A DNA stretch of 64,000 nucleotides from Pedobacter psychrodurus. GTDB lineage: Bacteria; Bacteroidota; Bacteroidia; Sphingobacteriales; Sphingobacteriaceae. The stretch's first letter is position 1, and each line of letters starts with the position of its first letter. Under the pieces are notes generated by a model. It saw only the letters and a list, made by a program, of their open reading frames with translations, made no database searches and was not told the origin of the DNA. Below, piece by piece: positions 48,076 to 50,339 of this stretch. A program made the position numbers and the translations under genes. The stretch is from contig NZ_SJSO01000005.1 in the NCBI RefSeq assembly GCF_004331735.1, positions 248,001 to 312,000 of the forward strand, read 5' to 3'.

Positions 48076-49038
48076 ATGATACTGGTAACCGGAGGAACTG
48101 GATTTTTAGGATCTGAATTAATTAAGCAGTTAACCGATAGCGGCTTAGCTATTCGGGCCTTAAGGCGGGAGAAATCTAAAATTCCTTCACTAATCCAAAA
48201 TATCCCACTTATAGAATGGTTTGAGGCTGATATTAATGAGCCATCGGCTCTGGAAGAGGCCTTTATAGGAGTTACCAAAGTTTACCATTGCGCTGCATTT
48301 GTATCCTTAAACCCAAAAGATAAAAAACAACTTTTTCACGTAAACATAGATGGAACCTCGAACATTGTAAACCTTTGTGCCGAAAATAATTGCCGTCTAT
48401 TGCACGTAAGCTCGGTTGCGGCCTTGGGCATTGCTAAAAAGGGCAATAAAATTACCGAGAAAGACTTTTGGGAATATGACGCTAAAGCACATGCCTATGG
48501 TTTATCCAAATACGAGGGCGAGATGGAGGTTTGGAGGGGTATTACCGAAGGTTTAGATGCTGTTATTGTTAATCCATCGATCATTATTGGTAAAAATGCG
48601 GGCTTTGAGGGAAGTGGAGCCATTTTTAAACTGGTAAAAGGTGGTTTTCCATTTTATACCGATGGTGCTTCTGGTTTTGTTGATGTTGAAGATGTAGCCA
48701 AATCGATGATCCTGTTAATGGGTGCCGAAGTTTCGGGAGAACGGTATATCATTTCTGCCGATGATTATCATTATAAAGATCTGTTCAGTGAAATTGCGCA
48801 GGGTTTTGGTGTTAAAGCACCAACAAAAGAAGCAAAATCATGGATGCTCGGTATAGCCTGGAGGTCGCTAAAATTTGCATCCATATTTACTGGTAAACAA
48901 CCTTCCATAACTAAAGATGCTGCAAAGAGCAGTTTAACCTTAAGTTATTACAATAACAATAAAGTAAAAACGGAAACAGGCATTACCTTTAAGCCAGTTG
49001 CCGAAAGCATAAAAGAAATTACCCAACATTTAAGATAA
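48076..49038 (+). CDS. NAD-dependent epimerase/dehydratase family protein
   Basis: A 320-residue extended short-chain dehydrogenase: TGGTGFLGSEL (5-15) binds NAD, and the YxxxK motif appears as YGLSKYEGE. It resembles dihydroflavonol reductase-like and sugar-nucleotide enzymes; substrate unknown. Its stop overlaps the next ATG by one base (TAATG), so it is coupled to the phosphatase fusion gene. Confidence 0.9.
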   Translation: MILVTGGTGFLGSELIKQLTDSGLAIRALRREKSKIPSLIQNIPLIEWFEADINEPSALEEAFIGVTKVYHCAAFVSLNPKDKKQLFHVNIDGTSNIVNLCAENNCRLLHVSSVAALGIAKKGNKITEKDFWEYDAKAHAYGLSKYEGEMEVWRGITEGLDAVIVNPSIIIGKNAGFEGSGAIFKLVKGGFPFYTDGASGFVDVEDVAKSMILLMGAEVSGERYIISADDYHYKDLFSEIAQGFGVKAPTKEAKSWMLGIAWRSLKFASIFTGKQPSITKDAAKSSLTLSYYNNNKVKTETGITFKPVAESIKEITQHLR

Positions 49039-50339
49039 TGCCCAAACAGAAAGCCTATTACATCATCGATTTTGATAGTACCTTTACACAGGTAGAAGCA
49101 CTTGATGAACTTGCCCGAATTTCGCTAAAGAACCACCCAGATAAAGAAGCGATTTTCCAAAAAATTGAAGATTATACCAATTTTGCCATGGAAGGAAAAC
49201 TTTCCTTCTCCGAAAGTTTAGCACAACGCGTTAAACTTCTTGAAGCAAATGAAGATCATTTAAAACAACTCATCAAACATTTAAAAAAGAAAGTATCTAC
49301 TTCTTTTTCGCGTAATGCCGAATTTTTTAAGCAACATGCGGATGAGGTGCTGATTGTTTCTGGCGGATTTAAGGAATTTATAACCCCTGTAGTAAGCCAG
49401 TACCACATTAAAAAGGAAAATATTTATGCCAATACCTTTGTAACCACTGGCGATGGTAAAATTATAGATTACGATCATGCCAATCCTTTAAGTGAAGAAG
49501 GTGGTAAAGTAAAATTACTTCAGCATTTAAAACTCGAAGGCGAGTTATTCGGTATAGGCGATGGTTATTCTGATTTCCAGCTGCGCGAAAGTGGTATCAT
49601 CAATAAGTTTTTTGCATTTACGGAGAATATTGCCCGTGAAAGCATTGTTTCAAAAGCAGACCATGTAACACCAAGCTTCGACGAGTTTTTGTATGTAAAC
49701 GATCTGCCCCGTGCAATTTCTTATCCTAAAAATAGAATCCTTTGCCTGGTAATTGGTGAGGTTGACCCCTTAACAATTTCTATCCTTAAAAATGATGGTT
49801 TGTCGATTAGGCATAAAACTTCTTTTGAAGATAAATATGTAAAGGATGTGGGAATTATCCTTTTAGCTGATGGTGAAAAAATAAATAAGGAACAGTTAAA
49901 AGATGCTGCTAAACTAAAAACGATCGGTTATTTAGGTAATGCGAAAAATAAAATAGACCTCGATTTATGTACCAAACAAGGTATTGTAGTTTTCGATGAT
50001 CCCAAAAATAACCCACGTAATATCGATTTTATCCCGAAACGGGTTGCCGATTTTATGAATACCGGAGCAACGTATCTGAGCAGCAATTTTCCGAACTTAC
50101 AATTGCCGAAAATTGAGAAATCGCACCGCTTAATTCACATTCACAAAAATGTTCCAGGTATTATGGCGAAAATCAATACTGTTTTTGCTAAACATGATAT
50201 CAATATTGTGAGCCAGTTTTTAATGACCAATTCTGAAATTGGCTATGCCATTACCGATATCAATGCAGAGTACGATAAACAATTGTTTAAATCGCTTAAA
50301 AAGATCGAACATACGATAAAGTTTAGGGTGCTTTACTAA
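49038..50339 (+). CDS. Phosphoserine phosphatase-type HAD fused to truncated SerA and ACT domain
   Basis: 433 residues. HAD-IB phosphatase (1-220): DFDST nucleophile (Asp11, Asp13), SGG (108-110), GDGYSD (174-179). Residues ~233-328 match the N-terminal part of 3-phosphoglycerate dehydrogenase (LKTIGYLGNAKNKIDLDL, GIVVFDDPKNNPR). The Rossmann domain, including GxGxxG and the catalytic Arg/Glu/His, is missing. SerA linker and ACT domain follow (SSNFPNLQLP, LIHIHKNVPG). The serine ligands of Escherichia coli SerA (His344, Asn346, Asn364) align with His369, Asn371 and Asn389 at identical spacing. Likely a serine-regulated phosphoserine phosphatase. Confidence 0.85.
   Translation: MPKQKAYYIIDFDSTFTQVEALDELARISLKNHPDKEAIFQKIEDYTNFAMEGKLSFSESLAQRVKLLEANEDHLKQLIKHLKKKVSTSFSRNAEFFKQHADEVLIVSGGFKEFITPVVSQYHIKKENIYANTFVTTGDGKIIDYDHANPLSEEGGKVKLLQHLKLEGELFGIGDGYSDFQLRESGIINKFFAFTENIARESIVSKADHVTPSFDEFLYVNDLPRAISYPKNRILCLVIGEVDPLTISILKNDGLSIRHKTSFEDKYVKDVGIILLADGEKINKEQLKDAAKLKTIGYLGNAKNKIDLDLCTKQGIVVFDDPKNNPRNIDFIPKRVADFMNTGATYLSSNFPNLQLPKIEKSHRLIHIHKNVPGIMAKINTVFAKHDINIVSQFLMTNSEIGYAITDINAEYDKQLFKSLKKIEHTIKFRVLY

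Follow-up and report, generated by a model that had tools for sequence, protein, structure and literature searches.

The window analysed here is a 64,000-nucleotide stretch of the genome of Pedobacter psychrodurus (contig NZ_SJSO01000005.1, positions 248,001 to 312,000). It carries a gene for a 433-aa protein in which a HAD-IB phosphatase similar to the phosphoserine phosphatase (PSP) SerB is followed by the substrate-binding domain (SBD) and the ACT domain of SerA, the phosphoglycerate dehydrogenase (PGDH), while the NAD-binding domain of the dehydrogenase is missing. We propose, with a probability of roughly 0.64, that this protein is the PSP of the cell and that it is inhibited by its own product, L-serine, through a sensor borrowed from SerA. 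Its function as a serine-regulated phosphatase is a strong prediction from sequence, and this short form almost certainly arose from a complete SerB-SerA fusion by excision of the dehydrogenase core. The last enzyme of serine synthesis, and not the first, would then be the serine-controlled step across a whole bacterial family, and these soil bacteria probably adjust their serine supply at the end of the pathway and not at its start.

Domain architecture

The open reading frame drawn in an earlier sequence-only reading of this DNA stands, from its ATG to its stop codon (Table 1). In the product, Pfam finds a HAD domain (residues 10-182), the 'catalytic', that is substrate-binding, domain of 2-hydroxyacid dehydrogenases (237-327) and an ACT domain (365-428), and no match to an NAD-binding domain. 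The earlier reading had held that an NAD-binding catalytic domain of roughly 200 residues was absent from the SerA part, and alignment with SerA of E. coli MG1655 bears this out: a gap after residue 328 removes E. coli residues 112-304, or 193 residues. PRK11790, the NCBIfam model of E. coli-type SerA, matches in two stretches with 156.8 bits (cut-off 404), and the best solved-structure matches of the C-terminus by sequence are SerA enzymes.

Residues 228-433 thus correspond to the SBD and ACT domain of E. coli SerA, a type II PGDH, and have the same three serine ligands, but the NAD-binding domain with Arg240, Glu269 and His292 that characterizes this type is absent. Arg60, a ligand of the PGDH substrate, is also lost: it is an Arg in 0 of 127 distinct short forms (142 rows less 15 duplicates) and in 18 of 18 complete fusions, the latter being those with extracted loci among the 25 found in the scan described below. 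Given these two losses, the protein should not be a dehydrogenase, and annotation by similarity to SerA could misname this phosphatase as one.

In 2-hydroxyacid dehydrogenases, the NAD domain is nested within the SBD, and in keeping with this the PF00389 match is split in complete enzymes; removal of the nested domain can therefore leave a closed SBD. We superposed a structure model of residues 228-433 (56 sequences, pLDDT 84.6, pTM 0.80) on SerA, a comparison that the sequence-only reading had suggested. SBD and ACT domain are in the SerA arrangement in the model, which fits E. coli SerA (1psd, residues 7-410, NAD domain skipped) with Z 25.1 and an rmsd of 2.0 A over 203 residues, and Brucella SerA (3k5p) with Z 25.6. 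The middle part thus models as SerA-like. It had been described as SerA scraps resembling a hinge; this is not supported, as residues 228-354 model as a complete PGDH SBD from which the nested NAD domain was cleanly removed. Since the predictor was trained on PGDH structures, the fit shows compatibility and not proof.

Table 1. Features of the 433-aa gene and its upstream neighbour (positions in the window)
Feature	Position	Strand	Basis or remark
Whole gene, HAD-IB phosphatase - PGDH SBD - ACT domain, 433 aa	49038..50339	+	ATG at 49038, stop ending 50339
HAD-IB (SerB-like) phosphatase domain, residues 5-222	49050..49703	+	Pfam, NCBIfam and structure matches
Linker SYPKNR, common to complete SerB-SerA fusions, residues 223-233	49704..49736	+	Alignment
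PGDH SBD, first part, residues 234-328; E. coli Arg60 replaced by A277	49737..50021	+	PF00389, residue counts, model
Site of the absent nested NAD-binding domain (E. coli SerA 112-304; 193 residues)	50021..50022	+	Alignment, two-block matches of complete fusions
Closing helix of SBD and bridge to ACT domain, residues 329-350	50022..50087	+	Alignment, model
ACT domain, residues 351-433	50088..50336	+	PF22629 at 365-428 (47.4 bits, cut-off 27); model
H369, equivalent to E. coli His344, ligand of serine carboxylate	50142..50144	+	Alignment; ligand role from PMC6300728
N371, equivalent to E. coli Asn346, ligand of serine amino group	50148..50150	+	Alignment; ligand role from PMC6300728
N389, equivalent to E. 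coli Asn364', serine ligand of partner subunit	50202..50204	+	Alignment; ligand role from PMC6300728
Epimerase-like gene, named from sequence reading	48076..49038	+	Directly upstream, one base in common with the start codon of the 433-aa gene

The phosphatase domain

The HAD domain passes the cut-off of TIGR01488 for HAD-IB phosphatases (60.7 bits against 45). Its best solved-structure match by sequence is a Francisella phosphoserine phosphatase-like protein, and in the full-length model it superposes on human PSP (1nnl) with Z 15.8 and an rmsd of 3.1 over 172 residues; M. avium SerB2 entries are also among the fold matches. PSPs are thus its best matches both by sequence and by fold. Eight residues, D11, D13, E20, R64, S108, K157, D175 and D179, are unchanged in all 127 distinct short forms and all 18 complete fusions. 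We take them, after the PSP of M. jannaschii, to be the catalytic Asp pair, the cap Glu and Arg, the Ser, the Lys and the GDG motif. On this assignment the protein has the catalytic residues of a SerB PSP, and it is very likely active as a phosphatase.

HAD-IB phosphatases vary in substrate, and the domain could act on another phosphomonoester or as a phosphotransferase; alternatively, the ligand of the ACT domain, be it serine or a different small amino acid (glycine, for example), could activate the phosphatase. The MtnX-like and ThrH models match the HAD domain weakly, and the cut-off of TIGR00338, the SerB equivalog model, is missed (64.9 against 144.15 bits), which is why we call the protein SerB-like and do not file it as SerB; two complete fusions and a stand-alone gene beside serA miss it as well (71.7-77.8 bits). 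However, PSPs are the best matches of the domain, the protein is the only SerB candidate found in a genome that has serC and serA, and it arose, as discussed below, inside a SerB-SerA fusion. We consider both variants very unlikely.

The probable serine site of the ACT domain

The serine ligands of E. coli SerA are His344, Asn346 and Asn364' (PMC6300728). They align with H369, N371 and N389, as had been read from the sequence, so that the ligand set of a SerA-type serine-binding ACT domain is present, and none of the 127 distinct short forms departs from this triad. The ACT domain is likely to bind serine. That it senses serine on the last step of the pathway is supported indirectly, by the invariance of the triad, by selection on the ACT domain, by the presence in the genome of a separate SerA devoid of ACT domain, and by the retention of the ligands in lineages where the dehydrogenase was lost or has decayed.

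The SBD-ACT part might instead be an assembly module only, which dimerises and stabilises the phosphatase and perhaps holds serine, with no regulation. E. coli SerA dimerises through two interfaces, one of which is formed by its ACT domains, and ACT domains can lose regulation, for example in mammalian PGDH (PMC6300728); the SBD-ACT fold kept in our model would also suit such a role. However, the ligand residues of the mammalian enzyme are altered (PMC6300728), whereas those of the short forms are unchanged throughout, and they are also kept in eight sequences from four other families (f68, f65, f91 and f76; families, genomes and loci are designated below by our own f, G and L numbers). We find this explanation unlikely, though not negligible.

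Conservation and selective constraint

Of 201 genomes sampled from the order, which all belong to a single family, 200 have the gene, and among the matches listed of those 200 every one is full-length and in a single frame. The linker S228-R233 is unchanged in 127 of 127 distinct short forms. Estimated from 42 pairs (38 sequences) with an overall dS of 0.1-0.9, dN/dS is 0.006 for the HAD domain, 0.033 and 0.041 for the two parts of the SBD, and 0.020 for the ACT domain; every part of the gene is under purifying selection. Its presence in nearly all genomes sampled from the order and a dN/dS below 0.05 in every part rule out a frameshift, an assembly error or a pseudogene, and the architecture is neither due to chance nor an assembly artefact.

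The SBD is the part that diverges fastest. Mean identity between nine short and 18 complete forms is 52.4% for the HAD domain, 57.7% for the ACT domain and 28.1% for the first part of the SBD, compared with 64.5% (ACT domain) and 67.7% (first SBD part) among complete forms. Only 15 of 101 SBD columns are invariant, seven of which make up S228-I234.

G099, the sole genome without the gene, matches the 6.2 kb around the gene in only three short stretches of DNA (27-155 bases), and it does have the serC-serA pair. Judged by frame length and match extent only, none of its four PF12710 matches looked SerB-like. G099 may have an assembly gap, or another PSP. As there is hardly any DNA match to the surrounding 6.2 kb, we do not use it as proof that the gene is dispensable.

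Origin from complete SerB-SerA fusions

The sequence-only reading had proposed a SerB-SerA fusion that lost its dehydrogenase core, and had called for a search for relatives fused to a full SerA. We scanned 395 Bacteroidota genomes, of which 96 had a match at E <= 1e-8. Full-length SerB-SerA fusions, in frames of 627-687 aa, occur in 25 of them, and all 25 match the 433-aa protein in two blocks, up to residue 329-330 and then from 326-331. Twelve genomes carry the short form, 11 of the window's family (P. psychrodurus included) and one, G462, of another family; the remaining 59 have partial matches only, many of them to stand-alone ACT-bearing SerA or HAD proteins. The complete fusions (about 630-690 aa) have the domain order, the linker and the ends of the short form but, unlike it, retain the PGDH active-site residues, with Arg240, Glu269 and His292 present in 18 of 18.

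In separate trees of the HAD and ACT parts, computed with 25 of the 142 short rows picked for spread, the short form is a single clade (100/96 and 100/99, respectively) nested among complete fusions. Fusions of family f47 adjoin it in both the HAD tree (93/86) and the ACT tree (94/73). The matching ends of the complete fusions, the shared linker and the agreement of the two trees strongly support the origin proposed earlier, namely excision of the dehydrogenase core from a fusion, which we regard as nearly certain. Alternatively, a HAD gene could have been fused independently to an already truncated SerA, with no excision. The linker sequence common to the complete fusions speaks against such an event, and the HAD and ACT trees, which both nest the short forms among complete ones, rule it out.

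Three other arrangements were observed in the course of this survey. In G556 (L206:1848-3724), a separate serB and an ACT-bearing serA share 22 bases, provided that the first ATG is used as start codon; this is a plausible state before fusion, though its HAD sequence stands on a long branch. Stand-alone HAD phosphatases of family f24 (L207:2523-3188 and L208:2020-2685) nest among fusions in the HAD tree, as if the entire SerA part had been lost. The short form of G462 (family f2; L209:4839-6134) is 65% identical to that of the window and groups with Pedobacter in the HAD tree (99/95), while its place in the ACT tree is unresolved; as the HAD tree puts it inside the window's family, it was probably acquired by horizontal transfer.

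Serine synthesis in the Pedobacter genome

An intact serA elsewhere in the genome was another item that the sequence-only reading had proposed to look for, and the search returned a 316-aa SerA devoid of ACT domain (SBD and NAD domain only), which adjoins serC (357 aa, above the PRK05355 cut-off) on another contig. The same adjacency of serC and serA was seen in each of the ten further family members tested, among them G099, and in seven of seven f4 genomes. Above the PF12710 cut-off, the genome has only the 433-aa gene and a 221-aa phosphatase that reads, we presume, as beta-phosphoglucomutase-like. The PF12710 search thus gave no second SerB, PSPs of other superfamilies not having been searched, and the fusion is the only SerB candidate that it found in this genome with serC and serA. 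Judging from the families searched, the only SerA-type serine sensor seen in the pathway would sit on the phosphatase.

The best NCBIfam match of the 316-aa SerA is PGDH, at 304 bits, which is below the cut-off of 454 set for longer enzymes. It is a type III PGDH in the scheme of PMC6300728, a type described there as not feedback regulated by serine. As excerpted, Table 1 of GapMind lists no SerB gap for Pedobacter sp. GW460-11-11-14-LB5 and does not name the 433-aa gene (PMC7311316); serA and serB in operons and alternative types of SerB are mentioned in the excerpt of PMC9026213, which contains no fusion, and Pedobacter is not mentioned in that of PMC5764234.

Elsewhere in the phylum, a close SerC was not found in the six genomes tested from families f8, f9, f10 and f47, which may thus use a different type of SerC. 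In G381 (L213:2338-3414), an aminotransferase resembling SerC, with 23% identity to the Pedobacter SerC, lies close to a complete fusion.

Loss or decay of the fused dehydrogenase in other families

The loss is wider than one genus. A class-wide scan of 395 genomes, 76 of which had a match at E <= 1e-40, showed the short form in three genomes of family f68, in a single frame in G597, split by frame in G635 and split over contigs in G666 (L226-L229). The gap in f68 is wider than that in the window's family (f1), and a 99/98 branch, flanked on either side by intact fusions, separates the HAD parts of the two families, so that the excision in f68 is apparently independent, unless its long branch misleads. 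In G635, the fusion gene and the separate serA are both frame-split, which may reflect sequencing errors. G635 and G666 were kept out of the trees because their genes are split, and loci L235 and L236, which run into contig ends, were left out.

In three more families the fusion keeps its full length but not its active site. Arg60, Arg240 and His292 are missing in five of five fusions of f65 (L230-L234) and in the single sequence of f91 (L237), while the single sequence of f76 (L238) has lost Arg60 and Arg240 and kept His292 and Glu269. The serine triad is retained in all eight sequences checked of f68, f65, f91 and f76. These full-length proteins are possible pseudo-dehydrogenase intermediates. 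Since the ligand site persists beside a dead dehydrogenase in at least two lineages, it can be argued that it now serves the phosphatase. Not every loss can be upheld as fully independent. The branch of f68 is long; in the HAD tree, f65 shares an open fork with f1 and f47; and the ACT tree groups f91 with f68, though under a long-branch warning.

We then compared the presence of a separate SerA (at least 44% identity to that of Pedobacter) in chosen genomes. Where the fusion is excised or decayed, 19 of 21 genomes had it; where the fusion is full-length, 12 of 30 did (Fisher p 0.0004, for genomes chosen by us and uncorrected for kinship). The first group comprises the window's family (10/10, P. 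psychrodurus included), f68 (3/3), f65 (4/5), f91 (1/1), f76 (1/1) and G462 (0/1); the second, f4 (9/9), f64, f95 and f96 (3/3), and f8, f9, f10, f47 and f56 (0/18). With f65, f91 and f76 counted as decayed, the PGDH active-site residues are kept in 25 of 25 full-length fusions checked, out of the 30 (all except those of G228, G377, G361, G497 and G271). As no close separate SerA was found in 18 of the 30, the fusion is probably the PGDH there.

Taken together, we lean towards the view that a serine sensor moved from the first to the last enzyme of the pathway through a fusion whose dehydrogenase was later removed or decayed, at least two times and perhaps four or more (excision in Sphingobacteriaceae and in f68, active-site decay in f65 and in f91), the phosphatase keeping the sensor while an unregulated SerA feeds the pathway.

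A different use of the sensor would be control in trans: serine would govern whether the phosphatase docks onto the separate SerA (and SerC) and would thus lend the ACT-less SerA a sensor. The separate SerA indeed lacks an ACT domain of its own and has a close relative in 19 of the 21 genomes just mentioned, and the retained SBD is still under purifying selection with its own NAD-domain partner gone. However, the 433-aa gene is not beside serC-serA in this genome, and the fast-changing SBD, with few invariant columns outside S228-I234, does not look like a conserved docking face; we consider control in trans quite unlikely.

Proposed mechanism and points against it

Our preferred reading, product inhibition of the phosphatase through the former SerA sensor, can be put as follows. 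The ancestor would have had a complete SerB-SerA fusion. We infer that a separate ACT-less SerA beside serC came to supply the first step before the NAD-binding domain nested in the fused SerA was cut out, so that phosphatase, SBD and ACT domain remained. Two chains would pair via their ACT domains, one chain contributing H369 and N371, and its partner N389', to an L-serine site at the interface. When E. coli SerA binds serine, its SBD-ACT body rotates relative to the NAD domain (PMC6300728). In the short form, the SBD-ACT body is attached to the HAD phosphatase and would pass on the serine-induced movement, presumably lowering rather than raising activity on phosphoserine when serine is plentiful.

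Besides the missed TIGR00338 cut-off, several observations weigh against this reading. The full-length model has a pLDDT of 75.4 and a pTM of 0.49 (Z 18.0 and rmsd 4.4 against 1psd), and the placement of the HAD domain relative to SBD-ACT is not fixed in it. Nor is the Gly-Gly hinge at 336-337 of E. coli SerA conserved, and Thr352 is replaced by Ala; in E. coli this residue acts via its main chain (PMC6300728). The invariance of the three ligand columns is by itself modest evidence, with a chance of 0.012, given that 20 of the 83 ACT columns are invariant. When f65 is added to the trees (with five short rows), the HAD tree no longer resolves the order of f47, f65 and the short form, which share an open fork (81/88), and the ACT tree still has f47 beside the short form (85/82).

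The survey of separate SerA also includes contrary cases. G895 has a decayed fusion and no close separate SerA was found in it. Next to its serC, G462 has a SerA-like protein of 389 aa that matches ACT weakly, so the rule that only the phosphatase bears an ACT domain fails there. The 12 of 30 genomes that retain a full-length fusion beside a separate SerA show that a spare SerA is not sufficient for loss, and rule out that it always leads to decay of the fusion.

Comparison with known systems

In mycobacterial SerB2, tandem domains ACT1-ACT2 precede the HAD domain and there is no PGDH SBD, whereas in the 433-aa protein a single SerA-derived SBD-ACT follows it, the only ACT region matched lying after the HAD domain. 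Both have a HAD PSP and an ACT domain on one chain, and M. tuberculosis SerB2 is inhibited by L-serine with a Ki of 22 uM (PMC10564941). Serine inhibition of an ACT-bearing SerB is therefore already known; what differs is the source of the sensor (SBD-ACT of SerA), the route (fusion, then excision) and the recurrence. We found no description of a SerB-SerA fusion, or of its core-deleted form, in the open-licence PMC literature.

Other fusions are related more remotely. In the Dunaliella enzyme 6iuy, N-terminal residues 72-251 of 624 match the HAD domain, so that a SerB-like part is joined to a dehydrogenase, but one named glycerol-3-phosphate dehydrogenase, unlike the PGDH of SerB-SerA. The PGDH-SerC proteins of oomycetes and brown algae are also fusions of the serine pathway (PMC2705460, PMC5715807); they join steps 1 and 2, as described there, whereas SerB-SerA joins steps 1 and 3.

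An evolutionary series can be followed in the Bacteroidota: serB and serA side by side, their complete fusion, fusions with a decayed dehydrogenase, and the clean removal of a nested domain, after which the domain around it apparently stays folded. It shows how an allosteric module can be handed between enzymes of one pathway. If our reading is true, the death of the fused dehydrogenase shifts serine feedback to the last step, while an unregulated SerA feeds the pathway.

Neighbouring gene

The genome context gives weak support to a serine role of the 433-aa gene, since the epimerase-like gene upstream of it has no clear role of this kind. In 78 of the 80 named loci it is the immediate upstream neighbour and has the same orientation, and the two genes are likely to form one operon.

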